This document shows positions 1,012-18,954 of a DNA stretch of 29,963 nt, piece by piece (the stretch's first letter is position 1; each line of letters begins with the position of its first letter). The stretch comes from a virus, in IMG/VR virus record IMGVR_UViG_3300002488_000043, positions 1-29,963 of that record; one strand, 5' to 3'. The notes under the pieces are model-generated. The model was given only the letters and a program-made list of their open reading frames with translations, did no database searches and had not been told where the DNA came from. Position numbers and translations under genes: made by a program.

Positions 1012-4000
1012 TTAGCCCAATAATTTGAAGCCTGACGCGACCCTTCGACTGCTGAAACCCCACTGGGGAGAGTAGTCCAGCTTCGCCATGTAGGGTCTAT
1101 TCAAGTGAATGACATCTTTGCCTGGCCTGACACCCCAACACTTAATCGTATTGATCTCGCTATTACTATCAATCACCCTGACAATGTAATAATCCTTGTT
1201 ATTCTTTGTCTTCTTCTTGATGATCTCGCGAGGGATAAACCAAGTCACTTGAAGCTGTTGATCAAACTCGCTAATAGGCGGTATATACAGCTCCTCAAGC
1301 CTTCTTAGGGTATTCTCATCCATAACTAAGCTCATTGGAAACACGCCCGTTAAATCGACCAAATATTGAATTTTTTCTTCCTCTGTAAAGTCACCTTCAG
1401 GGCGATAAGTCTCAATATTCTCAACAAGATTCTTTTCCTTTCTTGGTCGATCAAGAGCCACCGCAGCATGAAAATGCTTAAGACCATCAAATCGATCATC
1501 CATTAGACAATTAAGTGTCTGGCTCCTGACGAGGGCATCGAGCGCTTTCTTATTGAGTTTGCTGTAAATAATTTCCTCATGAAATAAGAATTCTTCAATG
1601 GCATGGAAAGGTCGATGCAGCTTTATTTGTTCAATCGCCTTATCACCTAAGCCCTTGATAGATGTAAGTGGTTGAATTAGAGTTTTTCCATCATCAGATA
1701 TCTCCCACACGGTGCCTGAAGTATTGATATTTAAAGGTTCGATGTTAAAACCATAGCTCTTTGCAATATTAATTGCTCTCTCCTTGCGAGTATCAGGCTC
1801 CTTATCAAGGAAAGCAGCCATCCACTCAGCCGGATAATAGTTCAAGAGCCAGGCACACTGATAGGACAGGACACAATAAGAAACCGCATGAGATTTATTA
1901 AAGCCATATCCAGAAAAATATTCAAACTTTTCCCACAGCTCTTTGGCTTCGTGCTTTTTCATACCCTTCTCTAGACACCCAGCTTCAAACTTACACCATA
2001 TCTTATCTTTTTGTTCTTGTACCTCTCCAGTGCCCTTCTTTGTCAAGAGCTTTCGAAGTTTGTTGCCGTCATCCAGTGACAAGTCCTTACCCAACTTGTG
2101 TGCCAACATGGCGATCTGTTCTTGAAAAATAAGAAAGCCGTGAGTTTCTTGAGTTACTTCTCTGATTGTTTCGTTAGCATAGTCGACATCCATTGGATTG
2201 TGTTTGGCACTAACGTATATCTTATCCACTCCAGCGGAGAGAGGGCCAGGGCGGTATATACTAGTAATAGCAGCCAGATCAATGATATTATCTGGTTTAG
2301 CTCTTTTACAAAAGCTTTGAGCGCCTGCTTCTGTGAACTGAAAGATCCCTGCCCATTTTCCATTCTGAAATATATTCTCCCACACTTCTTTATTATCTAA
2401 TTCCAAAACGTCTGGATGTAAGTTTTCATCGTAATACTTCTTAACATCCTCGAACGATGGCTCTTCAATATCGTGATGCCTTCGCAGCACATGCTTGATT
2501 GCATCCTCAAGCATACGTAGTGAGGCAAGACCAAGAATATCAAACTTAATAAAACCCATCGGCTCTAGATGTCGAACATTCTGTCCTTCTGACCATGGAG
2601 TTTGCCTAACACCACCGCTGTTAATTAATGGCATCCACTCATCCAAGTTCTCACCAACCACAACACCGCCAGCATGACGAGATGCTGACCTCGTTTGACC
2701 GTAGAGAGCATTAACGTGAGTTTTAATATCTGGATACTTTTGAAGGAAAGCCTTGAGGCTTTCTGAATATTTCATTAACTCTTCAAAGGTTGGACTATAA
2801 ACACCAGCTGTAATTCCATGATCCTTCTTAGCTAAGGGTGTTGCTTCATAGATCATTTTACCTGTTACATTGTTAACCTCTGTAAAAGGAATTTGATAAA
2901 ACTTTGATATATCCTTTATCAGGGATCGCAGCTGCAGTGTATTCCAGTTTGTAATTGGGACGACCATGTTATCACCCCACTCATCAATTAGTTGTTCCTT
3001 CAAGGTCATGGGATCCGCAACGTCATAATCAATATCAGGATATCCGGAACCACCCTTTGTAAGAAACCTTTCAAACTGAAGGCCATACTTGATGGGATCA
3101 ACTTGCGTTATACCTAGAGCATACGCCACTAATGACCCTGCAGCTGATCCTCGACCAGGACCAACAAGCTGTCGCTTAAGAGCTTTATCTGATATTGCTT
3201 TCATCGTTAGAAAGTATTTACTAAATCCACGAGAATCAATGATGCTGACCTCTCTTTCTAAACGTTTGACATACTCTTTATTGTTCGCGAAGCCCAATCT
3301 ACGAGCACCCTCAATCGACAGTTTTGCCAGGGCAAGTCGGGGAGTTGTATCGGGCGGCACAACAAAATCAGGCAAGCGGACAGTGTTATCAGGCCAAAAC
3401 TTTTCAATTCTTTCGCTGGCGATTTGATGCGTCCTTTTAATAGATTCTAAAATCAAGTCATCATCATATTCAAAGTCAGTCATCTTCGAATACTTCTTAT
3501 ATGCCTCCCACATTTGATCGCCATTCTTAGGGTATAACTCATAACCAACCTCTTCAACGTCAACGGGCAGCTCCTCTGACATCCACTCTGGGCGCTTGCC
3601 TAGCCAGCCTAGTCGCTTGTACAGCTCCCTATCCTTCCAGGCGTCAGGACTGTAGTAGTGACTATCAGCAGTGGAAATTAGCTCTACACCAAACTCTCTA
3701 TGCATCTCGATGATGTATTGATTAAGTTCATTTTGCTCTGGGACGTTGTTCCATTGCAACTCACCATACCAACGATCACCGAAAATCTGCATCATCTTTG
3801 TGGTAACTTGCCTCATGGAGTTCAGAATGGCGTCTCTACCTTGGTCTCTGTTCTCCCAATAACAACCGGCATATACTCCCCCCAAGCATGCACTAGCCGC
3901 AATGATGCCTTCGTTGTGTTTACGCAGCATGGCATAATCAACTCTTGGAAATCTATAAAAGTTTTCTTTCTTGTAACTTGAAGAAATCAATTTAAATATA

Positions 4001-4467
4001 TTCTTGAGCCCTGTTGGGTTTTGAGCCAATAGTATTAAATGCCTTCTTCTATTTAGAAGATTTTTGATTTGCTTCTTTGATGCCTCATCTTCAACGGTTG
4101 CACCAGACTGAGCGCTCTCGCTTTTCTTCTTAGATTTCTCTTGCTTTTTTACATTATCGTACTCCTCTCTCCAATTTGCAATGGATGGTATAAAGTAAGC
4201 CTCAACACCATAAATTGGCTTAAAGTCCTTACCTTCTTTGTGCATCTTCTTAGCATGTAACACCTGGTGGGCTAGACCATTTGCATTGCCGTGATCAGTA
4301 AGAGCTAAAGCATCCATACCATTTTTGAAAGCAAAATCCATGTGTTCTTCGGGGTACCCCAAAGCATCAAAGATACTTCCTGCAACTGAATGTGCATGAA
4401 GGCCCACAAAAGGGATCTCGGAAACGGTTCTATCTTTAAAGGTCTTCAATGATCCCCTCCAATTCAT
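1012..4467 (-). CDS. dnaE: DNA polymerase III alpha subunit, DnaE type
   Basis: Family C replicative polymerase of 1151 residues, close to cellular DnaE length. The N-terminal PHP domain shows LHAHS (His24, His26), TDHGN (58-62), GVEAYF (87-92) and TADSHY (266-271). The palm has GPGRGSAAGSL (436-446), the catalytic PDIDYD (Asp478, Asp480) and the third carboxylate in FIKFDILGL (Asp643). RSASRHAGGVV (593-603) and YRPGPLS are also DnaE landmarks, and an OB-like region follows near 1060-1140. It should be the main genome-replicating polymerase; no clamp or loader is in the window. The first PHP motif lacks the usual Asp after HxHS, so PHP activity is uncertain. Start: the ATG at 4467 has poor ribosome-binding context (AAGG directly abutting). 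A TTG at 4449 sits 6 nt after GGAGG, is an attractive alternative, and would shorten the protein by 6 residues. Confidence 0.93.
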   Translation of the reverse strand: MNWRGSLKTFKDRTVSEIPFVGLHAHSVAGSIFDALGYPEEHMDFAFKNGMDALALTDHGNANGLAHQVLHAKKMHKEGKDFKPIYGVEAYFIPSIANWREEYDNVKKQEKSKKKSESAQSGATVEDEASKKQIKNLLNRRRHLILLAQNPTGLKNIFKLISSSYKKENFYRFPRVDYAMLRKHNEGIIAASACLGGVYAGCYWENRDQGRDAILNSMRQVTTKMMQIFGDRWYGELQWNNVPEQNELNQYIIEMHREFGVELISTADSHYYSPDAWKDRELYKRLGWLGKRPEWMSEELPVDVEEVGYELYPKNGDQMWEAYKKYSKMTDFEYDDDLILESIKRTHQIASERIEKFWPDNTVRLPDFVVPPDTTPRLALAKLSIEGARRLGFANNKEYVKRLEREVSIIDSRGFSKYFLTMKAISDKALKRQLVGPGRGSAAGSLVAYALGITQVDPIKYGLQFERFLTKGGSGYPDIDYDVADPMTLKEQLIDEWGDNMVVPITNWNTLQLRSLIKDISKFYQIPFTEVNNVTGKMIYEATPLAKKDHGITAGVYSPTFEELMKYSESLKAFLQKYPDIKTHVNALYGQTRSASRHAGGVVVGENLDEWMPLINSGGVRQTPWSEGQNVRHLEPMGFIKFDILGLASLRMLEDAIKHVLRRHHDIEEPSFEDVKKYYDENLHPDVLELDNKEVWENIFQNGKWAGIFQFTEAGAQSFCKRAKPDNIIDLAAITSIYRPGPLSAGVDKIYVSAKHNPMDVDYANETIREVTQETHGFLIFQEQIAMLAHKLGKDLSLDDGNKLRKLLTKKGTGEVQEQKDKIWCKFEAGCLEKGMKKHEAKELWEKFEYFSGYGFNKSHAVSYCVLSYQCAWLLNYYPAEWMAAFLDKEPDTRKERAINIAKSYGFNIEPLNINTSGTVWEISDDGKTLIQPLTSIKGLGDKAIEQIKLHRPFHAIEEFLFHEEIIYSKLNKKALDALVRSQTLNCLMDDRFDGLKHFHAAVALDRPRKEKNLVENIETYRPEGDFTEEEKIQYLVDLTGVFPMSLVMDENTLRRLEELYIPPISEFDQQLQVTWFIPREIIKKKTKNNKDYYIVRVIDSNSEINTIKCWGVRPGKDVIHLNRPYMAKLDYSPQWGFSSRRVASGFKLLG

Positions 4468-6283: not shown

Positions 6284-8539
6284 TTAAAAAATACAAATTT
6301 GTAATTCAAAATTATATTTTGCTGACACCGTTTGGTAAAACCGTAGTTGGTTTTCTAAGCGCATGGCTTGTTCATCGGGGGCGCCTAGACATGCTTCGTC
6401 AATTATAGACATCAGGTTTTCATACATTTGGTTTTGATTCCATGTCAATTCAAACTCCCTACCTCCGGTTTGATTTGCCCAGTGTGCCCAATTACCACTA
6501 TTGTACGACGTTATAAAAGTATAAAGTTTAAATCTTGTTATTCCAGTTAAAGTATTAGTTATTACTTCTGGTTCAATTTCAGGACGCATCCATGATTGGT
6601 CTGGCTCATCAGTGAACACAATTACTATCTTGTCTACATTTTCTCTCCAGTTTATTTTAAACTCATCCTTGCTAGGTGTTGAAGCTGTATTGCAGCACCA
6701 ATCAGAATTATCAATATCGAAATCATCACTCGAAGAAATATTTTTAATAGAAAGATACAGAGCATCTCTAAGCATTTCAGTGCTTGTGTCCATTCTATCT
6801 GAATTTAAACCAACGAAAGCTGCTAAAAAATCCTCAAAGGGTGCAATGTCTGAAATTAGATATAATCTCTCTCTTTCTAGGTCGTCTGATCTAGGGCCAA
6901 CAACCAAACCCCACTGGAGCTTACCCTCGTCTTGAAATTGAGATGCAAACCTATTTAAAGCTGAGCGAACAGCTGCTATTTCATCGTCCATAGAACCGGA
7001 CCAATCAATAATAAATAAGATATCTGTATCTTTAATTTCTTCACCGTAGTCTGTAACACCATCGCAATCATTGTCTGCCCCATCGCATACCTCTTGAGAT
7101 GGAACAATCTCATCCTTACAGAAGTCTCTCTGAAACCTGTCCCACCTGTCCATGTTGCCCCATTGGCCCTGGTTGCAGATCATGTTTCCAGTCTTACAAA
7201 CTCCAACATCTAAAGTTTCAGTCGGGCCGGTGTAACAAGCAACTAGTAATTCTTCATCAACAGTTTGATCACAATCTTCATCAAAATTATTACAGATTTC
7301 ATTCTGCACCGTCATACCTGTATATGGATCACATTCTTGATTTGCTAACGTAGGCAATTGAGCGCAAAGTGCAAGACATTCAGACATAGTTAAATTAGTG
7401 CATTCAGGTGGGTCATTACACTCGCAAGTTTTAAAACCCTGACCGCATCTTAGTGGTGGCTCAGAACAAGGTATTAAAACCCCCACGTCTTGCACCGTAC
7501 ATTCACAATTTAGGCCCTCATCAATAAGCCCATCACAATCTTGATCTAGGCCGTCGCATGGGGCGACCTCCTCTGCTGGTTGAGGAACTGTACAGGATAT
7601 CCAGTTGCCAAAAGAGCAGGTCTCTAAGCCAACACCACAAGCTGTTTCGCACTCTCTAACCAGCTCTTCATCAATTTGACCATCGCAGTCATCATCGATG
7701 CCATTACATTCATCTGCTGGAACTGCCCCACACTTATCACATTCATTTCGCTGACCTTCGTCTATTCTTGTGTCGCAGTCATTATCCTCATAGTCACAAA
7801 CTTCTTCGCCAGGATGCGGAGCGTCACAGTCAATTATTTGAGCGTCGACACAGAAACCCCAGCCCATACCGCATTCATTTTCACAAAGAAACCTTCCCTC
7901 GTCTATTCTATCATCACAGTCGTTGTCTTCGCCATCGCAGGCCTCATCTCGACAAGGTTGGCAAGGGCCATGAATTAAGTTTCCTTTATTACAGACAACT
8001 CTCTGCATCCCAAAGCGACCATCTGCCAATTCGCAATCAAACCATTGAGTTTGATTAATCTCTGTATTAGGCGGACACTCAAAGGCTAGTTCACATTGTT
8101 CTCTACGGATAATTTGGGGTGGAGGACAGTCTTCGTCTAGACCAAAATCACAGGGCTGGTATGCGGCATCACAAACAGAGACGGTTACTCTTGAACGATG
8201 AATCTGATTGTCTGGGCGTGGCGGGCAGTACCACTGCTGTTGTTCACAACACTGTGGGTTGCAGCGACAATATAACTCAAAATCTGCTGGATTTTCATCA
8301 CCCTCGCATTCGCTAACAAAGCCAACTTCGGAGACCGGGGGCAAAGTTGCGCCGCCCTGATCAAAAGGAGTAAAAACATCAATTGGCACCGTGCCGCCCG
8401 TAATCTCCGAGGTTTGGCCACCAACAGCAGAGGTTACTAACGTTGGTTCTGGTTCTGGCTTTGATTTAGCGTATTCGCTTTCTGGTGTTTTATCATTACA
8501 AGAGAATAAAAAAATTAATAAAAATAATACATGCCTCAT
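6284..8539 (-). CDS. secreted lipoprotein with MopE-type metal-binding repeats and a VWA domain
   Basis: This 751-residue protein begins with a short lipoprotein signal: Met-Arg-His, a hydrophobic run, then LFSC with Cys14 as the probable lipidation site. A Pro/Thr-rich linker and a Cys-rich region follow. Six repeats of the form C-D/N-x-x-D-x-D-C-D-x-x-x-D-E (DNA 7047-7946) match the putative metal-binding MopE motif common in secreted proteins of Myxococcota and relatives. From about residue 505 comes a von Willebrand A domain with MIDAS residues: DILFIIDWSGSMDDE (DxSxS) and later FTDEPDQS. The many paired cysteines fit an oxidising, extracytoplasmic location. It starts 2 nt after the thyX stop with a GGAG site, so it belongs to the phage operon. 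It could alter the host surface during infection, for example adhesion or superinfection exclusion (inference). A virion role is less likely because of the export signal. Confidence 0.85.
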   Translation of the reverse strand: MRHVLFLLIFLFSCNDKTPESEYAKSKPEPEPTLVTSAVGGQTSEITGGTVPIDVFTPFDQGGATLPPVSEVGFVSECEGDENPADFELYCRCNPQCCEQQQWYCPPRPDNQIHRSRVTVSVCDAAYQPCDFGLDEDCPPPQIIRREQCELAFECPPNTEINQTQWFDCELADGRFGMQRVVCNKGNLIHGPCQPCRDEACDGEDNDCDDRIDEGRFLCENECGMGWGFCVDAQIIDCDAPHPGEEVCDYEDNDCDTRIDEGQRNECDKCGAVPADECNGIDDDCDGQIDEELVRECETACGVGLETCSFGNWISCTVPQPAEEVAPCDGLDQDCDGLIDEGLNCECTVQDVGVLIPCSEPPLRCGQGFKTCECNDPPECTNLTMSECLALCAQLPTLANQECDPYTGMTVQNEICNNFDEDCDQTVDEELLVACYTGPTETLDVGVCKTGNMICNQGQWGNMDRWDRFQRDFCKDEIVPSQEVCDGADNDCDGVTDYGEEIKDTDILFIIDWSGSMDDEIAAVRSALNRFASQFQDEGKLQWGLVVGPRSDDLERERLYLISDIAPFEDFLAAFVGLNSDRMDTSTEMLRDALYLSIKNISSSDDFDIDNSDWCCNTASTPSKDEFKINWRENVDKIVIVFTDEPDQSWMRPEIEPEVITNTLTGITRFKLYTFITSYNSGNWAHWANQTGGREFELTWNQNQMYENLMSIIDEACLGAPDEQAMRLENQLRFYQTVSAKYNFELQICIF
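7047..7946 (-). repeat. six MopE-type Cys/Asp protein repeats within the lipoprotein gene
   Basis: Six copies of a coding repeat, encoding patterns such as CDGEDNDCDDRIDE, CDYEDNDCDTRIDE, CNGIDDDCDGQIDE, CDGLDQDCDGLIDE, CNNFDEDCDQTVDE and CDGADNDCDGVTDY. They lie approximately at 7899-7946, 7759-7804, 7667-7711, 7519-7561, 7253-7299 and 7047-7092. The Asp spacing resembles a calcium-binding loop and each copy carries two Cys. The copies are diverged at DNA level, which argues against recent duplication. Confidence 0.85.
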
Positions 8540-10093: not shown

Positions 10094-11956
10094 CTATACA
10101 AATTTTACTTCACAAGCACCACCGGCACAGGCCAGCTCACCAGTTAAATCAGTGTTATCTTCTTCTTCGTTAACCATGGTTAAATCGATGTCACTCAAAA
10201 GATCAAACATGGCATCATATTTTTCTTTCGAGCAGTCTTCAAAAGGCGCTTGGACATAGCTCCCTCCATCGTAAGGCAATACCGATAAGCCATTGTAGCA
10301 ACCTCTATTATCCCACATCCATTCGCCTACGTCAAGCCATTCTGCATCTTTTATAGAAATTGTTGCAGAAACATTATGGGTATTTTGTCCCTTACTATGA
10401 CCTGGCTTAACCCAATTATCCGTAATGTGTTTAACGCGTTTCAATAATTGCAGTGCGGATTCTGTTCTCAGCATTGCTCCAGCTGGGGCTTTTTGTGGCA
10501 CGGATATCACAGCGGTGTCATGTGGTCTGAAGTATTCATCTTCTATTAAGTCTGGGCAGTTGTTTTTTAAATAACTGTAGATAGCTTCATTTTTTCCAAC
10601 TCTTAAGCGTCGAATATAATATTCAGAATGCCAAGCATGAATTCCAGAACTTGTCCCCAAAGTTAGTGAAGTTGTCCCGGCTGGCTTAACACATGTAGTT
10701 CTTGATGCTTTGTTTATACCTAACATTTTTGCAACTCTTTCATTTTCAAGCTTAACTTGTTTTGCTGCAGCTTTCATATCAAGTTCTGTAACCAACCCAG
10801 AAGCAATGCCTGTCATTGATACACCAACAAGTGCATCTTTTTCTGTTGTTCTTCTCCAGATATCTCTTAGATAGTGAAAGTCAGTATAGCTAGCTTGTAA
10901 AGTACCAATGAAAGCTGCACAACGAACACGATCTTCCAAATCTTCTTGACCCTCTACGTTAGAAACGTTAACCTCAGTAAGATTGCAAAATTGAAATGGC
11001 CGCAAAGCAATTTCGCAACATGGATTTGTACCCCAATCCTTATCGTTTGAAAAGTAAAAACCTGGCTCGCCGGCACCAGATGCTTTTACGCGATCCCATA
11101 AGCTCATAAAATATTCTTTGTTAATTTTATGTCTCAATAAGACAACAGAGTTATTTGCCCTGCCTCTTTGAGGATTTTTCTCGTACCAAGTACCCGATTT
11201 TGCAGAAATCATTTCTTGGTCAGACGCTGAAAATAGTGATATTAGAGCGGCTCGGCGGATACCTCCTGCTAAAACTGCATCTGCAATGTGACAAACAATA
11301 TCATGTACCTCGATGGGTGATAGCTTGTCACCGTTGTCCTTCTCAGAAAGCATGCCTTCAAGTTTTACCAAGCATTCGCGAAGTGGTTGTGGCCCAGGAG
11401 CTTTACCGCCAGAAGTTATCAACCTAGCACCCTTTGGTCTGATGTCTGAGTAGTCAAAGCGCAGTCTTGACCCACCATAAAAGTAAGTTCTCATCAACGC
11501 TTTCACTGCGTCGGCCCAGCCCTCAATTGAATCATTTACAAGAAATCTTCTAGTTCTTTTTGGGTTTGGCTTAAGTATTTCAGGCAACTTTTCAACATGA
11601 TGTTTTTGCACACTATAGCCAACTCCAGTTCCGCCAAGCAATAAGAACATCGCCTCTGAGAATGATCGCCAATCATCAATTGGCATGTACGCACAATTAA
11701 AAATTCTATTTGGAGCTACTTCTATCGGTTTACCGCCAAACTGCATTGATCTCATTGAAGGTAACACTTTCTTTTCTAAAACGAATTTATAATTTTTCCT
11801 AATTTGAAGCTCTAACTCTGGAAACTTCTTGATATGCATCGCCATATTACGATTTACTAATTCTTCCCAGTTTTCCCTTCTATTTTCGTCCTCTAAAAAT
11901 CTAGCGTATTTCATGTGAACAGTTATATCTGACAGTATTTTACTTGATAGCTCCAT
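10094..11956 (-). CDS. nrdJ: adenosylcobalamin-dependent (class II) ribonucleotide reductase, monomeric type
   Basis: Reduces ribonucleotides, probably triphosphates, to deoxyribonucleotides using a B12-generated thiyl radical. The 620 residues contain the expected catalytic set: Cys88 (FNCAY) and Cys324 (QFCNLTEVN) as the redox pair in the barrel, and NPCCEI at 311-316 with Asn311, radical Cys313 and Glu315. SDIRPKGARLITSGGKAPGP (170-189) is a class II landmark. The C-terminal tail CAGGAC (Cys610, Cys615) is the pair reloaded by thioredoxin. It is somewhat shorter than Lactobacillus RTPR, as phage versions often are. The gene overlaps the helicase by 17 nt and has AAGGAG before its ATG. Activity depends on host or environmental cobalamin, since no B12 gene is present. 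Confidence 0.93.
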   Translation of the reverse strand: MELSSKILSDITVHMKYARFLEDENRRENWEELVNRNMAMHIKKFPELELQIRKNYKFVLEKKVLPSMRSMQFGGKPIEVAPNRIFNCAYMPIDDWRSFSEAMFLLLGGTGVGYSVQKHHVEKLPEILKPNPKRTRRFLVNDSIEGWADAVKALMRTYFYGGSRLRFDYSDIRPKGARLITSGGKAPGPQPLRECLVKLEGMLSEKDNGDKLSPIEVHDIVCHIADAVLAGGIRRAALISLFSASDQEMISAKSGTWYEKNPQRGRANNSVVLLRHKINKEYFMSLWDRVKASGAGEPGFYFSNDKDWGTNPCCEIALRPFQFCNLTEVNVSNVEGQEDLEDRVRCAAFIGTLQASYTDFHYLRDIWRRTTEKDALVGVSMTGIASGLVTELDMKAAAKQVKLENERVAKMLGINKASRTTCVKPAGTTSLTLGTSSGIHAWHSEYYIRRLRVGKNEAIYSYLKNNCPDLIEDEYFRPHDTAVISVPQKAPAGAMLRTESALQLLKRVKHITDNWVKPGHSKGQNTHNVSATISIKDAEWLDVGEWMWDNRGCYNGLSVLPYDGGSYVQAPFEDCSKEKYDAMFDLLSDIDLTMVNEEEDNTDLTGELACAGGACEVKFV

Positions 11957-13328
11957 TGTTGTTCTCCTTCTTGTATGATTTATATTTTTCTTTCAAAGTC
12001 TGTAATTGTTCTTTAGCACTCTTCTCTACTATGTCCTCTACAGTGTCGCCGGTTGGTGGCAGCACTTTAATCTTAACACAACTAGTGTCCATGAAAATTG
12101 GATAGACTAATCCATCCGGCCCATTGCGGTTTTTTGCAATGAACACACGACCACCATTCGTATTTTTATCTTTTACGGTTCGCGATACAGAAAAGATAAA
12201 GTCCGCAACGAAACATTTATTAAATGCTTCAGATATAGACTCCATTGTAATTACTTCGGCATTCAATCCAGATCGATTTGTTTGAGATGCAGTCCAAAGT
12301 GGACACTCATTTATCTGTGCAATTCCTCGTAACTCCTCATAAATAGTCTCTAGTTGATGTCTTTTCTCCTCTTTTCTAGAAGAAAATGGTTTTATTAGAT
12401 CTCCATAATCTACAATGATTAAGTCGGGTACAAAATCTCTTGTTTTCATTTTTTCTAAATGCGTTTTAATTGTCTGAATAGATGCGGATCTGGTTGGATA
12501 TTCTTTTACAATAAGCCTACCTTTAACATCCTGCAGTTCTTCATATATCTTCTCTTTGAATACAGTAAGATTTTTTAATTCAACGCCTGTAATGGCACTG
12601 TCATACCTGCTAGCAACAACAGTATCTGCTAATTCTAGTGTATAATGTATAACATTCTTTCCCGCTAACAAGGCATGAGCCCCTAGGTGAACTAATACCA
12701 TAGACTTTCCAGCACCGGTGGGAGCTATCACCACACCAAGTTCACCTTTTCCTAGGCCACCTTTGTTGATGTCATCTATTTGTTGCCAACCGGTTGTTAC
12801 TGGGTTGCGTTCCTTAATTTGAAATCTTCTTTCAAAATCTTTAATATAATCGTAGCCAAAATTATTATCCGTACCCAACTTTATTGCATCATTAATAATC
12901 TTGCTAACTTCATCAAAAGAAGATCTTTTAATCAAATCAACCGACTTAATTAAAGCTTCTTTTAGTTTTTGTTTTTTGCAAAAGTCAAGGGCAGTGTTCT
13001 TTATATATTCTGAACCCTCTGGTTCTAGTCGACTTGCAAGAACTCTAGCATAATAATCTCTTATTCTAATTTGAATAGATTCATTTTCATTCTGAAACTC
13101 TGTTCTGATAATAGATTTCATTATTTTCTCTGTTGGGTGTACACCATACCTGTCGCGATAGTTTATAATCTTCTTGATAAAAACTCTTAAATACTTTAAT
13201 TCCAAGAAGTTAATGTCTAATACTTCAAACATTTGATCAGCGAATGGCCGATCAGTTAAAATTAATTGACAGAGATCCTCTTGAAAAGATTTTCCAAACT
13301 TAGAAAAATCTTCTCTATCTTGTTCCAT
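11940..13328 (-). CDS. dnaB: replicative DNA helicase, DnaB / T4 gp41 family
   Basis: Hexameric 5'-3' helicase that unwinds the fork for the phage polymerase. The 462 residues have a helical N-terminal domain (about 1-150) that would bind primase or a loader, then a RecA-like motor: TTGWQQIDDINKGGLGKGEL leads into Walker A APTGAGKS (202-209), HYTLEL (motif H1a-like), Walker B DLIIVDYGD (302-310) and ASQTNRS (motif H3). This order matches DnaB and T4 gp41. AAGGTGG precedes the ATG. It sits between the FEN nuclease and the ribonucleotide reductase. No primase is encoded in the window. Confidence 0.9.
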   Translation of the reverse strand: MEQDREDFSKFGKSFQEDLCQLILTDRPFADQMFEVLDINFLELKYLRVFIKKIINYRDRYGVHPTEKIMKSIIRTEFQNENESIQIRIRDYYARVLASRLEPEGSEYIKNTALDFCKKQKLKEALIKSVDLIKRSSFDEVSKIINDAIKLGTDNNFGYDYIKDFERRFQIKERNPVTTGWQQIDDINKGGLGKGELGVVIAPTGAGKSMVLVHLGAHALLAGKNVIHYTLELADTVVASRYDSAITGVELKNLTVFKEKIYEELQDVKGRLIVKEYPTRSASIQTIKTHLEKMKTRDFVPDLIIVDYGDLIKPFSSRKEEKRHQLETIYEELRGIAQINECPLWTASQTNRSGLNAEVITMESISEAFNKCFVADFIFSVSRTVKDKNTNGGRVFIAKNRNGPDGLVYPIFMDTSCVKIKVLPPTGDTVEDIVEKSAKEQLQTLKEKYKSYKKENNNGAIK

Positions 13329-13368: not shown

Positions 13369-14346
13369 TTAGAAAACAGAAGTAAAAAATTTAGATACCA
13401 TCTTATTAAAGCACTCATTAAGATCATTTAAGGTGACCTCACCAGCACCATCTTTAATCATCAGGGCCTTTAGCCCTGTTTTATTGAACTCCGGAACATG
13501 GTTTTCCATGGTTGTTTCAATCAGGGTCTTTCTTTGTACTGATATACAAGGAGAATAAAGCTGCATAATTTTATAGTTTTCTTTAATCAATTCTCTTTGT
13601 TCGATAACCTTGTCATAAATTTTTAACTTGCCTTTGTTCTCTTCTGAGTGAGAAATCAAATCCTCCAAGAAACATTCTTTTTCTTCAACAAGAAAGGGGA
13701 ATCTTTTGGATGCAGTCTGTAATCCTACTCCTGGAACACCTGGTAGGTTATCGCTTTTGTCACCGGCCATTGCCCGGGCTATTGCAAAGTTTGTTGGATG
13801 TATACCAAACTTATCAATCACAATTTTCTCAGTTAATATTTCATCTTGTGTGGGTCTGTATAGGATAGTCTTCTTGTTTAAGAGTTGAATAAAGTCCTTA
13901 TCACTAGACACGATCACTTTTTGCCAATCTGAAAAACTGGTTAAATTACAGACATACGATATCACATCATCTGCTTCAACTTGAGGCTCCATGAATTGTA
14001 TAATAGGAGTTTGGTTTAGGTAATCTATTACTCTTAATTGCTGCCAAATCTTATTTTCTGCTTCTTCATCTTCAGACAAGTGTCTGATATCCCTGTTAAG
14101 CCTCAGTGGTTTTCGACCTGCTTTGTAATCTTTATTAATTGCACGTCTTTTGTTTGATCCACCCTCACCATCCCAGACAACCACAATCATGTCTGGCTTA
14201 ATGTTTCTTGTCAGTTTATTAAGAATCTTCAAAAAACCTTTACAACCACCAATTGGTTGGCCATTTTGGGATAGGCTTGGATCAACTATATATGATCTTA
14301 AAAACTGGTTGTGAGCATCAACAACCATTAATCTATTATTTGACAT
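13369..14346 (-). CDS. 5'-3' exonuclease / flap endonuclease (Pol I N-terminal, T4 RNase H type)
   Basis: Removes RNA primers and 5' flaps on the lagging strand. The metal-binding acidic residues are in order: Asp10 (MVVDAHN), Asp59 (VVWDGEG), Glu124/Asp126/Asp127 (VEADDVIS), Asp149/Asp151 (SSDKDFIQLL) and Asp196/Asp199 (GDKSDNLPGVPGVG, which also begins the helix-hairpin-helix). The length of 325 residues is normal for stand-alone phage FENs. It is the first gene of its unit, with AAAGGA before the ATG and a strong promoter inside the upstream terminator. The compact family A polymerase in this window carries no such domain, so the two may act together in gap filling. Confidence 0.93.
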   Translation of the reverse strand: MSNNRLMVVDAHNQFLRSYIVDPSLSQNGQPIGGCKGFLKILNKLTRNIKPDMIVVVWDGEGGSNKRRAINKDYKAGRKPLRLNRDIRHLSEDEEAENKIWQQLRVIDYLNQTPIIQFMEPQVEADDVISYVCNLTSFSDWQKVIVSSDKDFIQLLNKKTILYRPTQDEILTEKIVIDKFGIHPTNFAIARAMAGDKSDNLPGVPGVGLQTASKRFPFLVEEKECFLEDLISHSEENKGKLKIYDKVIEQRELIKENYKIMQLYSPCISVQRKTLIETTMENHVPEFNKTGLKALMIKDGAGEVTLNDLNECFNKMVSKFFTSVF

Positions 14347-14422: not shown

Positions 14423-15547
14423 CTAATCTTCTTCTGGTTTTTCAGATTCATAAAAATCTTCTGCTTTACCTTCACGATTTTTGAATTTTTTAATTACATC
14501 ATCGTCAATAATAGACAGAACACTTTCTCTGAAGTTTTCATTTTTGAGTTTTTGTGTCCAACCCTTTCTCTGAAATCTTTCTTCTGTGCCGTCATTCAAA
14601 ACCAGGGTAAACCAAGCACCAGACTGTTTAAGTCTTTCGGATATTTGAATTGCTTCAAACCAACTCTCTTCATCTTGAATACCAACAGTATCTGTGTTAC
14701 CCCAAAGAATTTTGAAATTGCAATGTCGACCAGCTGTTCCAAACCTAGACTTCTCTAGTTTTGCCTTAACTTCTGATCCTACCCTAAAGCCATTATCGTC
14801 CGTGACATAAGATGCCTTGGACTTTCTACCAGTTAGCCATACTCGCAAAGAATATGCGTAATGCATGGCCTTGCCACCAGGAGTAACCCATGGCGTAACC
14901 ATGGCTTCAGCTGGGGTTCTGGTAATGTTTGTCTTAAGCTGATTTAAGACAACAAATGTTGCTTGCTTGTTAGCAATGGGAACAGTTAGTTTTGACATGC
15001 CCTTTGATAAAATTCTTGGCTTAACTGCCATTGAAGATTGCGGATTGAAATCCCCTTCAATATCAGATATTGATGGTGTTAAGGCTAAAGAATCCCAGAT
15101 AAACAGCCATTTGTTATCTGTGCTTAATAATTCTTCAATTGTTTCAAGCACAAACTCAACACTCTCAGCTTGTAGATAAATTAATTTACTTAAATCACAA
15201 CCTGACTTTTGCAAAAAATCAGAATCAATAGCTGATTCGCTATCAAAATAAGCAACATCCATACCCATTTTTTGAGCATTAGCTGCTATTTGTGCCGCCA
15301 TAAAAGATTTACCTGTAGCCTCAAGTCCTGCAATTTCTGTTACCTTTCCAACCGGTACACCGGCTAGCTTACCTTTGCATATAATGGAATCCAACCAGCG
15401 TGAACCAGTTGAAATCCATTCTTTTACATCGGTAGGGTTTTCTTCTTCTAGGCTGTGGGCAATTTCTCTGCCTGTTTTCTTATTAATCAGCTTTCGAATA
15501 TCACCCAGCGATAATTTTCCGGTTCTTATTTTACTTACTTTTGCCAT
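14423..15547 (-). CDS. uvsX: RecA/UvsX-family recombinase
   Basis: Strand-exchange ATPase for recombination-dependent replication and repair. The 374 residues show Walker A GLEATGKS (74-81), the catalytic Glu in AYFDSESAID (99-108), Walker B LFIWDSL (148-154), the RecA-like VVLNQLKTNITR (199-210) around loop L2, and TPGGKAMHYAYSLR (222-235). The acidic C-terminal tail (YESEKPEED) matches RecA and UvsX. It follows the FKBP gene by 2 nt with a weak ribosome-binding site, so coupling is likely. A terminator ends the unit 28 bp later. Sharing a transcript with the gp32-like SSB fits T4, where gp32 and UvsX work together. The symbol is by family analogy. Confidence 0.92.
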   Translation of the reverse strand: MAKVSKIRTGKLSLGDIRKLINKKTGREIAHSLEEENPTDVKEWISTGSRWLDSIICKGKLAGVPVGKVTEIAGLEATGKSFMAAQIAANAQKMGMDVAYFDSESAIDSDFLQKSGCDLSKLIYLQAESVEFVLETIEELLSTDNKWLFIWDSLALTPSISDIEGDFNPQSSMAVKPRILSKGMSKLTVPIANKQATFVVLNQLKTNITRTPAEAMVTPWVTPGGKAMHYAYSLRVWLTGRKSKASYVTDDNGFRVGSEVKAKLEKSRFGTAGRHCNFKILWGNTDTVGIQDEESWFEAIQISERLKQSGAWFTLVLNDGTEERFQRKGWTQKLKNENFRESVLSIIDDDVIKKFKNREGKAEDFYESEKPEED

Positions 15548-15549
15548 GC

Positions 15550-15993
15550 TTACTCACTAATGTTCATAACTTCAATTTCAAAATTTAAGCTTTTACCAGC
15601 CATAGGGTGGTTCAAGTCTAGCTCAACATTTGAATCTGAAAAAGAATTGATAGTGGCAATAAATGGTCGACCCTCCATGTCCCTGCCCTGAATTACCTCA
15701 CCGATTTGAAAATTAAAATCCGGTGGGAATGCATTTTGCGGCACTGTTTGCACAAGTTCTGGATTTAGATCTCCATAAGCCTGCTCCGGGGAGAGTTTAA
15801 TATTTTTAACCTCACCCAACTTCATTCCAACAACTGCTGAGTCGAAACCAGAAATCATTTGTCCTGATCCAACCTCAAAAGTAATCGCCTCGTTACGTTC
15901 CCGGGAGCTATCAAACTGTGTACCGTCATCCAGTGTCCCAACATAGTGAACATCAACTGTCCTTCCGCTCAATACTTTTCTCAACTTACCCAT
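15550..15993 (-). CDS. FKBP/SlyD-type peptidyl-prolyl cis-trans isomerase
   Basis: Folding catalyst of 147 residues. The FKBP core is clear: VDVHYVGTLDDGTQFDSSRE, then ITFEVGSGQMISGFDSAVVGM and GEVKNIKLSPEQAYGD, and the closing LDLNHPMAGKSLNFEIEV as in SlyD and other bacterial FKBPs with an inserted flap domain. No signal peptide is present, so it is cytoplasmic. The SlyD His-rich metal tail is absent. Start: the ATG at 15993 has AAAGGAG 8 nt upstream; an in-frame upstream start at 16026 would lie in the terminator stem and is rejected. Its place between the SSB and the recombinase is unusual and suggests a chaperone for replication proteins or a need for high expression. Confidence 0.9.
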   Translation of the reverse strand: MGKLRKVLSGRTVDVHYVGTLDDGTQFDSSRERNEAITFEVGSGQMISGFDSAVVGMKLGEVKNIKLSPEQAYGDLNPELVQTVPQNAFPPDFNFQIGEVIQGRDMEGRPFIATINSFSDSNVELDLNHPMAGKSLNFEIEVMNISE

Positions 15994-16010
15994 TATATTC
16001 TCTCCTTTAT

Positions 16011-16043
16011 AAAAAATTAGAGGCACCTGTAACCCCGTGCCTC
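16011..16043 (-). terminator. hairpin with T-tract between SSB and FKBP genes
   Basis: Minus-strand GAGGCAC (16043-16037), a 10-nt loop, GTGCCTC (16026-16020), then TAATTTTTT (16019-16011). It lies 16 bp after the SSB stop and 18 bp before the FKBP start. It is probably a partial terminator giving more SSB than FKBP/UvsX transcript; the AA interruption makes it leaky. Confidence 0.65.
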
Positions 16044-16059: not shown

Positions 16060-16821
16060 CTATGAACCTAAAAGGTCATTGAAAGCGGCCTCAACAGCGT
16101 CGTTTGACGCACCCGACGTTGCATCGGTTGATCCCCCGTATTGCTCAACTTCTGACTGAGAAGTCTCAGCGTCTAGGAACGCATCAAGCATTGCCTGTGC
16201 TTCTTCTGGTGACTTTCTTTCAAACAATTCTTCAAAGTTGGGAATTGTTTCCAGAAGCTCAGCACATCGATCTTCGCCACCAACATTATCATCGCAAAGT
16301 ACTGTCTTGCGTGGTCGGGGACGAATATCGGTTCTAGGGAACCTTTCACCAGCTGGCTTACCATACATAACCTTGAGGTCATTACCCATGTCTGGGTCGG
16401 TAATGTCGCCGTAGTCCGGATCTAAGACAATGTTAAGGAGCTTCTCATAAGCCATCTTACCATAACCCCAAACTCTAATACCTTGATTTTCTTCACCTCT
16501 TACAAGAACAGGTGAAAAGAACCTTTGTTTGGCGAACATGTCTTTAGCCATCCTCTTACTTTCTTCTGTACCCTCATTCCATAGTTTGTTACCAAAATCA
16601 CAAACTGGACAACTGTCTCCAAAATTTCTCTTGGGACACAAGAAACCACCCGGCGCTACATTATAATGAAACCACTTCTCCTTAAAGGGATCACCATCAG
16701 CAGTTGGAACAATTCTTACATTATTCTCGCCATCTTGGGGTTTCCAAAAATCTGTTTTTGAACTATCCTTGCCGGATAGTGTATTCAATTTTGATCGCAT
16801 TCGATCTAGATCTAGAGCCAT
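16060..16821 (-). CDS. single-stranded DNA-binding protein, T4 gp32-like
   Basis: Coats single-stranded DNA at the fork. The 253 residues show the gp32 layout: a basic N-terminal segment (LDLDRMRSKLNTLSGKD), an OB-fold core with a zinc site His52-Cys62-Cys71-Cys74 (WFHYNV, FLCPKR, SCPVCDFG; spacing 10, 9, 3 against 13, 10, 3 in T4), and an acidic Ser-rich tail ending NDAVEAAFNDLLGS that would recruit partner proteins. Start: the ATG at 16821 has AAGGAGG 6 nt upstream; the longer frame from 16896 passes through the leader hairpin and is rejected. It heads the unit with FKBP and UvsX. Its leader resembles the structured gp32 operator, so autogenous control is possible. Confidence 0.9.
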   Translation of the reverse strand: MALDLDRMRSKLNTLSGKDSSKTDFWKPQDGENNVRIVPTADGDPFKEKWFHYNVAPGGFLCPKRNFGDSCPVCDFGNKLWNEGTEESKRMAKDMFAKQRFFSPVLVRGEENQGIRVWGYGKMAYEKLLNIVLDPDYGDITDPDMGNDLKVMYGKPAGERFPRTDIRPRPRKTVLCDDNVGGEDRCAELLETIPNFEELFERKSPEEAQAMLDAFLDAETSQSEVEQYGGSTDATSGASNDAVEAAFNDLLGS

Positions 16822-16894: not shown

Positions 16895-16922
16895 ACTATA
16901 ACATATCTGAAATTTAAATCAA
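16895..16922 (-). promoter_or_regulatory. sigma70-like promoter for SSB/FKBP/uvsX
   Basis: On the minus strand TTGATT (16922-16917), a 16-bp spacer and TATAGT (16900-16895). The -35 overlaps the stop codon of the FtsZ-like gene. Start near 16888. Confidence 0.6.
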
Positions 16923-17767
16923 GTCTTTTTTGAAGAATTTTGAATTTTTGTTGAATGAGCTAAAATATAACCACAATCTTCATCATAGTCTGTTGAATAA
17001 ATACCATAACTAACTTTTGTGTCGCTTAAAGTCTTTTTCTTAACTTGATCAACTATTTTTTTATGCAAACCTTTTTCATTCCTCAATTTTTTTTCAGGTA
17101 TGCCATAATAATACCGGGCATCTCGAATAAAGTCAAGAGGAAAAAATAATTTTTCTTGACCAGTTTTTGAATTTAAAATCCCAAAGGTTGAAATTTTTGC
17201 AAATTCTACTGGATCTGAAAAGGTATCTGAAACAGACTGGATATGATTGTAAACATTTATCATATGAAATGCTGAGACTATCGTTTCATTTATTCTTGGA
17301 TAATAATCAAAAACAGAAGCATCTTCAACCAGGCTACTTAAGCTGTCGTTTGAAGCAAGAAATATTCTATTAAAGACATTTGATCTTGCATATTCCTGGA
17401 AAATATTGAATGCGATTTTTTCTTGCAAAAATTTAGTTTCGCTTAACAATTCAACTTCTGGCTTTACATACAATATATTAATTTTACAATTTTTGTTTAG
17501 TTTTTCTAGAATGACCAAAGAGGCACCTGAAGTGATACTAGCTCCAGAGACGATAAACAAAATCCCTCCTTTTATATTCTTTAAAAAGTTAGCTATTTTT
17601 AAATCCTTGGTTTCATATTCTTCGGGATTAGAAAACTTTGGGATTTGTAAACAATCCTTATCTTTCTGAATTTCAGAATCTATTTTATATACTCTATATT
17701 GTGAGTATGCTTTAAATTTATCTGCTATTCGACATCCCACGCCACCTAACCCAATTACCGTTTCCAT
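16919..17767 (-). CDS. divergent FtsZ/tubulin-like protein
   Basis: No close match is recognised, but the 282 residues follow the FtsZ GTPase domain in order. The start METVIGLGGVGCRIADKF resembles the FtsZ opening (VIGVGGxGxN). GGILFIVSGASITSGASLVI occupies the place of the tubulin signature GGGTGTG. INILYVKPEVELL, a helix, then FNRIFLASNDSLSSL match the FtsZ segment VAVVTKPFxFEG to LIxIPNDKLL. DPVEFAKISTFGIL resembles the FADVRTVM region. The signature loop keeps only some glycines, so GTP binding and polymerisation are doubtful. A ThiF-like Rossmann protein is an alternative for the first 30 residues only. The gene overlaps the polymerase upstream by 13 nt and has AAGGA before its ATG. Position suggests a role in replication or DNA positioning. 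Confidence 0.5.
   Translation of the reverse strand: METVIGLGGVGCRIADKFKAYSQYRVYKIDSEIQKDKDCLQIPKFSNPEEYETKDLKIANFLKNIKGGILFIVSGASITSGASLVILEKLNKNCKINILYVKPEVELLSETKFLQEKIAFNIFQEYARSNVFNRIFLASNDSLSSLVEDASVFDYYPRINETIVSAFHMINVYNHIQSVSDTFSDPVEFAKISTFGILNSKTGQEKLFFPLDFIRDARYYYGIPEKKLRNEKGLHKKIVDQVKKKTLSDTKVSYGIYSTDYDEDCGYILAHSTKIQNSSKKT
17108..17136 (-). promoter_or_regulatory. possible internal promoter inside the FtsZ-like gene
   Basis: On the minus strand TTGACT (17136-17131), a 17-bp spacer and TATTAT (17113-17108). It is within coding sequence about 200 bp before the SSB promoter and could add to SSB expression. In AT-rich DNA this could occur by chance. Confidence 0.3.
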
Positions 17768-18954
17768 GTAAAGTCCTTCATCTGTCCAAAATTATTTCCA
17801 ACTTGCACGTTTGTTTTGAATTTACCAAACCTTGTATTTTCAAACAACGTTGCTATCTCATATATCTTATTAAAGTCCTGTCTCGCAAAATCTATAGTAA
17901 TTGAATCGTGCATTAAAAATGCAACCTTGCTCTGCCAACCCTGCAACATTTTAAAAACTTTGTATGCTTGCTCTAAGAATATATCACTTGAAGTCGATTG
18001 CAAAATATAATTTACACTGTGAAATTCATCAGACAATATCTCTCTATGAAATGGTGTTGAGACTTTTTCACCATCCCAGAATTTCTCTCTCAGCGCGTCT
18101 CTATTATAAAATTTATCAATCATGTGATCTTTTGAATTTGGATTGTAAAGCCATGCAAAAATTCTTTTCTTTGCCTCGGGCCTTGTTATAGATCCATTAA
18201 ATATATTTTTAATATTCCAGTCATGGATGTCAATGTCTGGTTGAGATTGATCGTTTAAAGCTAAAAATGTTCTTATCTCTGCTGCATTAAAATCTAGCTC
18301 CAAATAAACATCATTGGTGGGTTCTATATATTTTCTTAGATCTTTATCCAAAGTTAGTATTGGAAAAGATCTCTTTTGAGAACTTAATCTCCCTGTCTTT
18401 GTGCTGAACATTCTATATCTTATAAAGTTATCAAACTTGTTTTTATTTTTTAGAAAGTTTCTAGCTTTTGGAGCAAAAGAATCTTTCTTGAGAGCTTTGT
18501 AATTAATTTTGATTTCTTGAGATTTTATATCTTCAATCATTTTTGTAATCTTAAGCAGATGATCATAGTTTAGAGGCTTTTCGTGTGTATTAAAGACATG
18601 CTTGGTGATAGTGTTCTTTAATTCAAGATATGTTTTCAGGTTATTGTGAGGTATCAAGTCAAAAATACAGTTTTCTTTCAAATCAACTTTTGCAATTTTG
18701 AGAGATTTAATAAATGCTTTGATGTTATTTAATGTTTCAATATTATCTTGCTTTAAGCTTTCTGGGCACGCTTCGAATATTTCTTCACTTTGAGCATAAA
18801 GTTGTGCATATTCTATGGTTTCATATTCTTTAAGTGGCTTAGAGTATTTCCACGTTTTAGAAAATTCATCTAAACTATATTCATGGAACTGTAAGTTTCC
18901 ATTACAATAAACACCAACACATTCTTGTTTGTCGTCAATACTCTGAAAATACAT
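17755..18954 (-). CDS. compact family A DNA polymerase (no exonuclease domain)
   Basis: The 399 residues carry all polymerase motifs of the Pol I family and little else. TGRLSS (187-192) is followed by motif A LELDFNAAEIR with catalytic Asp221, Glu226 and Arg228. Motif B, RPEAKKRIFAWLY, keeps Arg258, Lys262, Phe266 and Tyr270 in the Pol I spacing but lacks both glycines. NYILQSTSSD (315-324) precedes motif C LMHDSITID with His349 and Asp350, where the usual Glu after Asp is Ser351. The first 175 residues show no 3'-5' or 5'-3' exonuclease motifs. AAAGAGG precedes the ATG. It may act in primer replacement or repair beside the DnaE polymerase. It begins 9 nt after a virion gene and overlaps the FtsZ-like gene. 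Confidence 0.85.
   Translation of the reverse strand: MYFQSIDDKQECVGVYCNGNLQFHEYSLDEFSKTWKYSKPLKEYETIEYAQLYAQSEEIFEACPESLKQDNIETLNNIKAFIKSLKIAKVDLKENCIFDLIPHNNLKTYLELKNTITKHVFNTHEKPLNYDHLLKITKMIEDIKSQEIKINYKALKKDSFAPKARNFLKNKNKFDNFIRYRMFSTKTGRLSSQKRSFPILTLDKDLRKYIEPTNDVYLELDFNAAEIRTFLALNDQSQPDIDIHDWNIKNIFNGSITRPEAKKRIFAWLYNPNSKDHMIDKFYNRDALREKFWDGEKVSTPFHREILSDEFHSVNYILQSTSSDIFLEQAYKVFKMLQGWQSKVAFLMHDSITIDFARQDFNKIYEIATLFENTRFGKFKTNVQVGNNFGQMKDFTWKR

Follow-up and report, generated by a model that had tools for sequence, protein, structure and literature searches.

The question raised by this locus is what a phage does with a tubulin-like protein whose GTP signature is degenerate and whose gene lies between those of a DNA polymerase and an SSB. 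The well-studied tubulin/FtsZ proteins of phages and plasmids, PhuZ and TubZ, are GTP-driven filaments, with the TubZ filament belonging to a DNA-partition system. PhuZ is also described as such a filament in the available part of PMC4244570, and the accessible text of PMC7824862 credits jumbo phages with two distinct FtsZ/tubulin representatives as self-organizing NTPases. The gene studied here lies in the window, by which we mean the whole 29,963-nt stretch analyzed (IMG/VR record IMGVR_UViG_3300002488_000043, positions 1 to 29,963), and we refer to its product as a pseudo-tubulin. A first-pass annotation, made from the letters alone, had read it as an FtsZ/tubulin-like protein translationally linked to a compact polymerase. 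In the literature covered, which was seen in part and had preprints and most subscription papers outside its scope, we found no description of this protein.

A large family with a predicted tubulin fold

The motifs quoted in the first-pass annotation were all found in the ORF (VIGLGGVG at the N terminus, SGASITSGA at residues 74 to 82, VKPEVELL, and ASNDSLSSL), and its two neighbors proved to be as named: it is preceded by a compact family-A DNA polymerase and followed by a gp32-like SSB (Table 1). Because the pseudo-tubulin ATG lies within the last codons of polA, with a 13-nt overlap, and an AAGGA stands six bases ahead of it, the description of the two genes as translationally linked was a fair one. 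The SSB starts with an ATG at 16821 after AAGGAGG, and is longer in the ORF list, where it begins at a GTG at 16896. The window matched the 192,821-bp contig IMGVR_UViG_3300025132_007963 at three probed points, with window base 1 at about contig base 33,779; this parent contig has no end repeats and may be incomplete.

Table 1. Positions of the genes and pseudo-tubulin elements discussed, in window coordinates
Feature	Coordinates	Strand	Basis or remark
DnaB-like helicase	11940..13328	-	PHROG 19 E 2.4e-70
5'-3' exonuclease	13369..14346	-	PF02739 E 3.3e-28
RecA/UvsX recombinase	14423..15547	-	PHROG 97 E 1.2e-53; PF00154 E 1.8e-35
FKBP-type peptidyl-prolyl isomerase	15550..16026	-	PF00254 E 4.3e-23; only in some loci
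gp32-like SSB, directly downstream	16060..16821	-	PHROG 1192 E 7.7e-25; PF08804 E 9.3e-12
Pseudo-tubulin gene (P0001)	16919..17767	-	ORF, ATG start, 282 aa
T7 loop/H8 place, residues 176-191	17195..17242	-	short loop without catalytic DxxD
H7 Asn160, presumed base contact	17288..17290	-	N in 154/187; aligned with invariant canonical H7 Asn
T6 Asn140, presumed base contact	17348..17350	-	N in 147/187; aligned with canonical DNE Asn
QEYARS, residues 124-129, H5 end, most conserved patch of the family	17381..17398	-	3.87 bits for 121-130
T4 loop SGASITSGA, residues 74-82, degenerate GTP signature	17522..17548	-	GGG[TS]G in 0/187 members
T1 loop GLGGVGC, residues 6-12	17732..17752	-	3.54 bits; family G-L-G-x-A-G-C
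Compact family-A DNA polymerase, 399 aa, directly upstream	17755..18954	-	PHROG 17 E 2.5e-11
Pseudo-tubulin Shine-Dalgarno-like site AAGGA	17774..17778	-	inside polA; read from sequence

The window's pseudo-tubulin matched no model in Pfam, PHROGs, or NCBIfam, and a search of PDB sequences was likewise fruitless. The profile of a 20-row family alignment (A1) gave three chance-level matches to PDB sequences and no tubulin or FtsZ. When the 20 members were searched, PHROGs returned 13 families (the best, at E 0.0062, being nameless) and Pfam returned weak matches to TrkA_N in 4 of the 20 (best E 0.0098), to DUF4527 in one (E 0.0019), and to saccharopine dehydrogenase in one (E 0.0095). A tblastn search of 50,697 GenBank phage records with two family members found no match. 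In IMG/VR, the single protein matched 28 of 67 pattern stretches (27 loci), and with A1 as the query 308 of 347 stretches carried relatives, the best 80 of which were kept. All loci fetched contained 192 distinct ORFs, with only identical C termini merged and loci overlapping between assemblies; residue counts below refer to 187 members. Pseudo-tubulins are a large family in uncultivated phages.

Among GTDB genomes, one relative was found (in one of four stretches, in one scan), in a WOR-3 metagenome-assembled genome (L283; CP070664.1). This candidate WOR-3 "chromosome" carries the gene block on an approximately 5-kb phage piece that lies between cellular genes with unread stretches on either side. 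As a piece bounded in this way is most likely a mis-binned scaffold, we rejected this relative as evidence for a host.

The AlphaFold2 model of the pseudo-tubulin, computed with A1 as input, had a pLDDT of 91.9 and a pTM of 0.91. A Foldseek search of the PDB placed FtsZ 4m8i on top (E 1.6e-13, probability 1.00, query-normalized TM score 0.71), and all 50 matches listed were to FtsZ or TubZ (E 1.6e-13 to 3.8e-11). With VIA-align, CetZ 3zid_B (Z 24.7, rmsd 3.0, 260 residues aligned, model residues 1 to 282) was followed by CetZ2 4b45 (Z 23.8), TubZ 2xka_C (Z 23.3, rmsd 2.9 over 275 residues), FtsZ 2r6r (Z 22.4), and, at up to Z 21.7, chains of microtubule entries that we take to be tubulin. The 50 matches listed comprised only CetZ, TubZ, FtsZ, and microtubule entries, most of them covering model residues 1 to 282. 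The likeness to FtsZ/tubulin that had been anticipated over residues 1 to 190 therefore extends over residues 1 to 282, with the C-terminal domain included, and the protein is predicted to have the two-domain tubulin fold over its full length, with helix H7 connecting the domains. In a viral structure library, FtsZ of an uncultured Caudovirales phage was the best match (6.2e-11), a "cell division protein" came next (3.2e-9), and PhuZ of Noxifer was fourth (E 1.2e-6); because the seven best rows were only 10 to 15% identical to the query, there is no close family member among them. With 192 distinct homologous ORFs, a model of this confidence, and Foldseek matches to FtsZ and TubZ, the ORF is more than a product of chance.

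A match over the full length to another Rossmann family, such as ThiF/E1, was not seen, as the structure matches listed all belonged to the tubulin/FtsZ group. With these full-length matches and with TrkA_N only weak in Pfam, we rejected a ThiF/E1 or dehydrogenase identity.

Canonical phage tubulins form a large family of uncultivated phages in their own right (L105, L106, and their relatives L107 to L266, in records of up to 280,913 bp). They are relatives of CetZ, FtsZ, and TubZ by sequence (CetZ E 4.7e-17). Pfam Tubulin (PF00091) was found elsewhere in 2 of 12 large pseudo-tubulin-bearing records, above the cut-off in L105 and below it in L106, and L187 fell just under the Pfam cut-off. When the profile of 187 pseudo-tubulins was run against 12,399 distinct ORF segments, all but one of the 50 best-scoring outsiders were canonical phage tubulins (49, best E 3.2e-7), the exception being a family member in truncated form. 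Among the 30 best outsiders of the canonical profile, E. coli FtsZ (2.6e-10) was joined by 29 pseudo-tubulins, with E values from 4.1e-6 to 0.065. Canonical phage tubulins are thus the closest relatives in both search directions; because those listed were of the L105 type, which share 88% or more identity with L105, they represent about one lineage. The pseudo-tubulin profile missed both E. coli FtsZ and 201phi2-1 PhuZ, and A1 reached the L105-type tubulin over residues 131 to 187 in four records (E 3e-5 to 1e-4). Comparison by hhalign with A3, an alignment of canonical phage tubulins from large uncultivated phages, gave weak scores (E 0.0012, probability 19%; second alignment, E 0.0056, probability 6.5%), and for this reason the case for descent rests on the fold comparison and the both-way profile search. 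Judged by sequence, those both-way matches show that pseudo-tubulins are related by descent to the tubulin/FtsZ superfamily.

Both kinds of tubulin were found together in 10 of 20 records carrying a canonical tubulin. Of 22 pseudo-tubulin records, many being fragments, only 2 yielded a canonical tubulin. The canonical profile found no canonical tubulin among the 718 ORF segments of the 192,821-bp parent contig, where its best match was the pseudo-tubulin itself (E 0.056) and the next stood at E 2.8. We rejected, as a rule, the idea that pseudo-tubulins pair with a canonical tubulin as second subunits in a common filament. With 20 of the 22 often fragmentary records yielding no canonical tubulin, serving as such a subunit is probably not their whole role.

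Kept and lost parts of the GTPase

Loop names follow general usage for the tubulin/FtsZ superfamily, in which the T6 and H7 Asn residues contact the nucleotide base. The degenerate GTP signature described for the window holds throughout the family, in that neither GGG[TS]G nor GGx[TS]G occurred at T4 in any of the 187 members. Gly75 was kept in 185 and Ser80 in 143, and residue 79, which aligned with a Gly of the canonical T4 loop in our alignment, was I or V in 160. The window's own loop reads Ile78-Thr79-Ser80-Gly81, and I or V stood at position 78 or 79 in 166 members. In our alignments, approximately 40 residues separate S2 from S4 in the pseudo-tubulin versus approximately 56 in L187, about 16 fewer, with no T3 glycine loop. 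The residues invariant in A3 include positions in T1, T3, T4, T6, H7, and T7, and two of them, G99 and K102, had no pseudo-tubulin counterpart.

At the T7/H8 place, the AlphaFold2 model contained no helix at residues 175 to 191, the span from 171 to 196 was 26 residues long in 185 of the 187 members, and a scattered D..D occurred in 8. Relative to canonical phage tubulins, this region lacks about five residues and has not been excised wholesale: in our alignment, the H7 Asn and the Phe of the T7 "TF" are 23 residues apart in L187 and the window's protein alike, and that Phe and the S7 Gly are 18 residues apart in L187 versus 13 in the window's protein. In protofilaments of phiKZ TubZ, FtsZ, and tubulin, T7, the H8 base, and S9 share one space at the subunit contact, according to the available part of PMC3678025. 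Canonical phage tubulins have GGGGTGS or SGGSGGG loops, a T3, and an FDxxD T7, all absent from pseudo-tubulins. The canonical polymerization and GTPase parts are therefore missing from the family, with T4 rewritten, T3 shortened, and T7/H8 reduced to a loop without DxxD.

What pseudo-tubulins mostly keep is T1 and the two probable base-contacting Asn residues. At T1, G8 was present in 186 and G11 in 173 of the 187 members, and in two family members the A3 profile aligned its GvGggGG here. Asn140 and Asn160 were present together in 147.

Conservation was computed in bits on 78 members (49 effective), with a mean of 2.64. The H5 end ranked first, with Q124 and R128 in all 187 members, S129 in 186, Y126 in 178, and E125 in 167. 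After T1 came the H7 end (3.12), S8 (3.11), S7 (3.03), the H1 end (2.97), T4 (2.9), and the T3-equivalent stretch (2.76), all above the mean; the H7 start (2.6), T5 (2.59), and T6 (1.98) lay below it. Helices H1, H5, and H7 of the tubulin fold have their ends directed away from the nucleotide, and the strongest conserved patch would therefore lie near the expected T7 contact. Conservation is not confined to this side, with T1, T4, S7, and S8 above the mean too. Because T1 and T4 are among them, some residual ligand use of the old nucleotide pocket is possible.

By these defining features, the pseudo-tubulin is a branch of the tubulin/FtsZ superfamily that is not FtsZ, TubZ, CetZ, or PhuZ. Archaeal CetZ (3zid, 4b45, 4b46) is the best structural match to the model, but the two are 12 to 19% identical in fold alignment, with no sequence match found among PDB sequences. 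CetZ 4b45 reads VGQAGG at T1, where pseudo-tubulins mostly read LGxAGC, and CetZ keeps the glycine-rich T4 that is degenerate in pseudo-tubulins (SGGTGSS in 3zid, GGGSGSG in 4b45). FtsZ shares the fold, but its GGGTGTG and catalytic T7 are absent from the pseudo-tubulin; TubZ of Bacillus plasmids also shares the fold, but the pseudo-tubulin is without the signature and T7/H8. PhuZ of nucleus-forming phages has a phage-borne tubulin fold in common with it. The initial distinction of the protein from PhuZ was borne out, as 201phi2-1 PhuZ has GGGSGS and was missed by the family profile. Single-sequence searches of the parent-contig ORFs with PhuZ and chimallin (gp105) gave nothing better than E 0.94, in a contig that may be incomplete and by a search that is insensitive. 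FtsZl1 and FtsZl2 (Makarova and Koonin 2010, PMC2875224) are bacterial and archaeal and are implicated in membrane remodeling, and the main text of that paper, as available, nowhere uses the word phage.

The replication-recombination gene block

The gene order in 103 loci, as far as the contigs reach, was tail genes, orf472, polA, pseudo-tubulin, SSB, (FKBP), recA, exo, dnaB, and RNR. In the window, one flank holds FKBP, RecA/UvsX, the 5'-3' exonuclease, DnaB, and ribonucleotide reductase, and the other holds unnamed genes and tail genes (sheath, T4-type baseplate). Within 2.6 kb of the gene, polA was present upstream in 182 of the 185 loci with at least 300 bases of room and SSB downstream in all 142 loci with at least 1,500 bases of room, counts that are not independent events because only identical C termini were merged. 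None of the 192 distinct ORFs was a fusion with polA or SSB. Three loci showed no polA upstream. In L435 and L457 the contig starts too near the gene, with a small inserted ORF in between, whereas L453 genuinely departs from the rule, having other genes upstream, including one that we read as NUDIX-like. In the reverse direction, among the 80 top-scoring polA relatives (out of at least 580), a pseudo-tubulin lay downstream of polA in all 74 loci with 900 bases of room, with other ORFs in between in a few (for example, L344, L353, and L370). Such additional ORFs were also seen between the two genes in some of the 103 loci. The pseudo-tubulin thus sits in a polA-pseudo-tubulin-SSB-RecA gene block, although operon position can reflect shared timing alone.

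Among the 20 canonical-tubulin records, presence of a pseudo-tubulin (10 records) coincided exactly with presence of a close polA (E below 1e-148); 7 of the others have only a distant polA (approximately 400 aa), and no polA was found in the remaining 3. In the slot after the distant polA (L392 to L398, no pseudo-tubulin found) is a protein of approximately 170 to 200 aa, with SSB and recA later. This protein might be a functional stand-in for the pseudo-tubulin; the one tested had no Pfam match. Four of the seven records then have a DEDD-type exonuclease (L394 to L397, of which L394 and L395 show identical proteins; PF00929 E 4e-11 for the one tested), and what we read as an HD-type protein follows in L392 and L393. 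L398 has neither beside its distant polA.

A distance-tree test on 26 loci gave the pseudo-tubulin partial correlations of 0.59 with RecA, 0.25 with orf472, 0.22 with PolA, and 0.04 with SSB. Its raw correlation was also highest with RecA (0.82), and PolA had a partial correlation of 0.59 with the exonuclease. This test favors RecA over PolA as the protein that covaries with the pseudo-tubulin.

The compact polymerase scored below the Pfam cut-off against PF00476 (E 1.4e-7, 31.3 bits versus 34.3), with its motif A, B, and C residues intact (D221, E226, R258, K262, Y270, H349, and D350, invariant in 20 rows). Its AlphaFold2 model (pLDDT 91.0) was Klenow-like and matched the 566-residue Bst PolI large fragment at Z 25.0 with 368 residues aligned. 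Because it is much shorter than the Klenow fragment, the proofreading domain would survive in it as no more than a remnant. In addition to the family-A enzyme, a DnaE-type DNA polymerase III alpha of 1151 aa is encoded in the window (positions 1012-4467; TIGR00594 E 7.8e-172).

Two further window genes drew our attention. A 751-aa protein at 6284-8539, which we read as lipoprotein-like from its N terminus, carries metal-binding motifs of the MopE type (E 8.3e-13), and its VWA-like match narrowly misses the Pfam cut-off; such a protein is odd for a phage. At 275-889, there is a weak, partial similarity to the HinfI restriction enzyme (E 9.4e-5 over 32 residues, far below the cut-off).

Proposed role and alternatives

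The best explanation in our judgment, held with about even confidence, is that the pseudo-tubulin is a tubulin relative stripped of its polymerization and GTPase parts that does not polymerize and has been recruited to phage replication-recombination. Produced in coupling with the compact PolA, it would act as a monomer or small oligomer, an accessory of the replication-recombination machine. The H5-end patch, together with the conserved ends of H1 and H7, would form a docking face for a replication partner, placed by fold topology, that replaces the longitudinal filament contact. The old pocket may be empty or may hold a purine moiety structurally, and canonical GTP hydrolysis would not be expected. 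We name the replication-recombination block, and not PolA alone, because the distance-tree test was highest with RecA. We infer from the whole that the protein is neither a GTPase nor a filament, that it docks through the H5/H7 ends, and that its partner belongs to this block. The most specific form of this proposal falls slightly short of even confidence: a tubulin-superfamily protein would have left the cytoskeleton, with T3, the phosphate loop, and T7/H8 lost, to become an obligate non-polymerizing subunit of the phage replisome or recombination machinery, with a new QEYxRS docking face at the former filament contact.

Three alternatives are each unlikely. The one that survives best would make the pseudo-tubulin a decoy subunit that caps or poisons host FtsZ or a sister phage tubulin, with its nucleotide-side face binding a protofilament end and the missing T7/H8 stopping growth so that division is blocked. 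A full-length tubulin fold without T7/H8 is the expected look of such a one-sided cap, and phage proteins acting on FtsZ are known from the available parts of the literature (lambda Kil, P1 Icd, and T7 Gp0.4). The conservation on the nucleotide side is divided, with T1 and T4 above the mean but T5 about at it and T6 well below, less than a binding face suggests, and the genomic linkage is with replication genes.

Ranking next is a role in recombination, in which the pseudo-tubulin would be a RecA/UvsX-SSB mediator that, for example, controls RecA filament loading. RecA gave the highest raw and partial distance correlations, and SSB and RecA lie downstream within the same block. However, only 26 loci entered that test, and RecA, which evolves slowly and aligns well, may simply follow the phage tree more closely than the other proteins do. 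Direct coupling is with polA, and the pseudo-tubulin is present in every polA locus with room among the 80 top-scoring ones, out of at least 580.

Least likely of the three is a new kind of filament with altered nucleotide use, the second idea in the first-pass annotation, or with none; it might, for instance, be a scaffold that holds phage DNA in position during replication. In its favor, polymerization is normal for tubulin-fold proteins and the gene sits among replication genes. PhuZ, moreover, is needed for mid-cell positioning of phage DNA in the available part of PMC4244570. Against it, T7 and H8, which contribute to the longitudinal contact, have shrunk to a loop, T3 is shortened, and the model has no long PhuZ-type C-terminal tail (last strand 265 to 272 of 282).

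We therefore favor a non-polymerizing, replication-linked role for the pseudo-tubulin over a filament. If this is true, the tubulin fold can be reused outside the cytoskeleton, with its engine lost and its gene tied to those of a DNA polymerase, SSB, and RecA, and the pseudo-tubulin would add an unrecognized part to phage replication. The family would then possibly represent a new use of the superfamily's fold.
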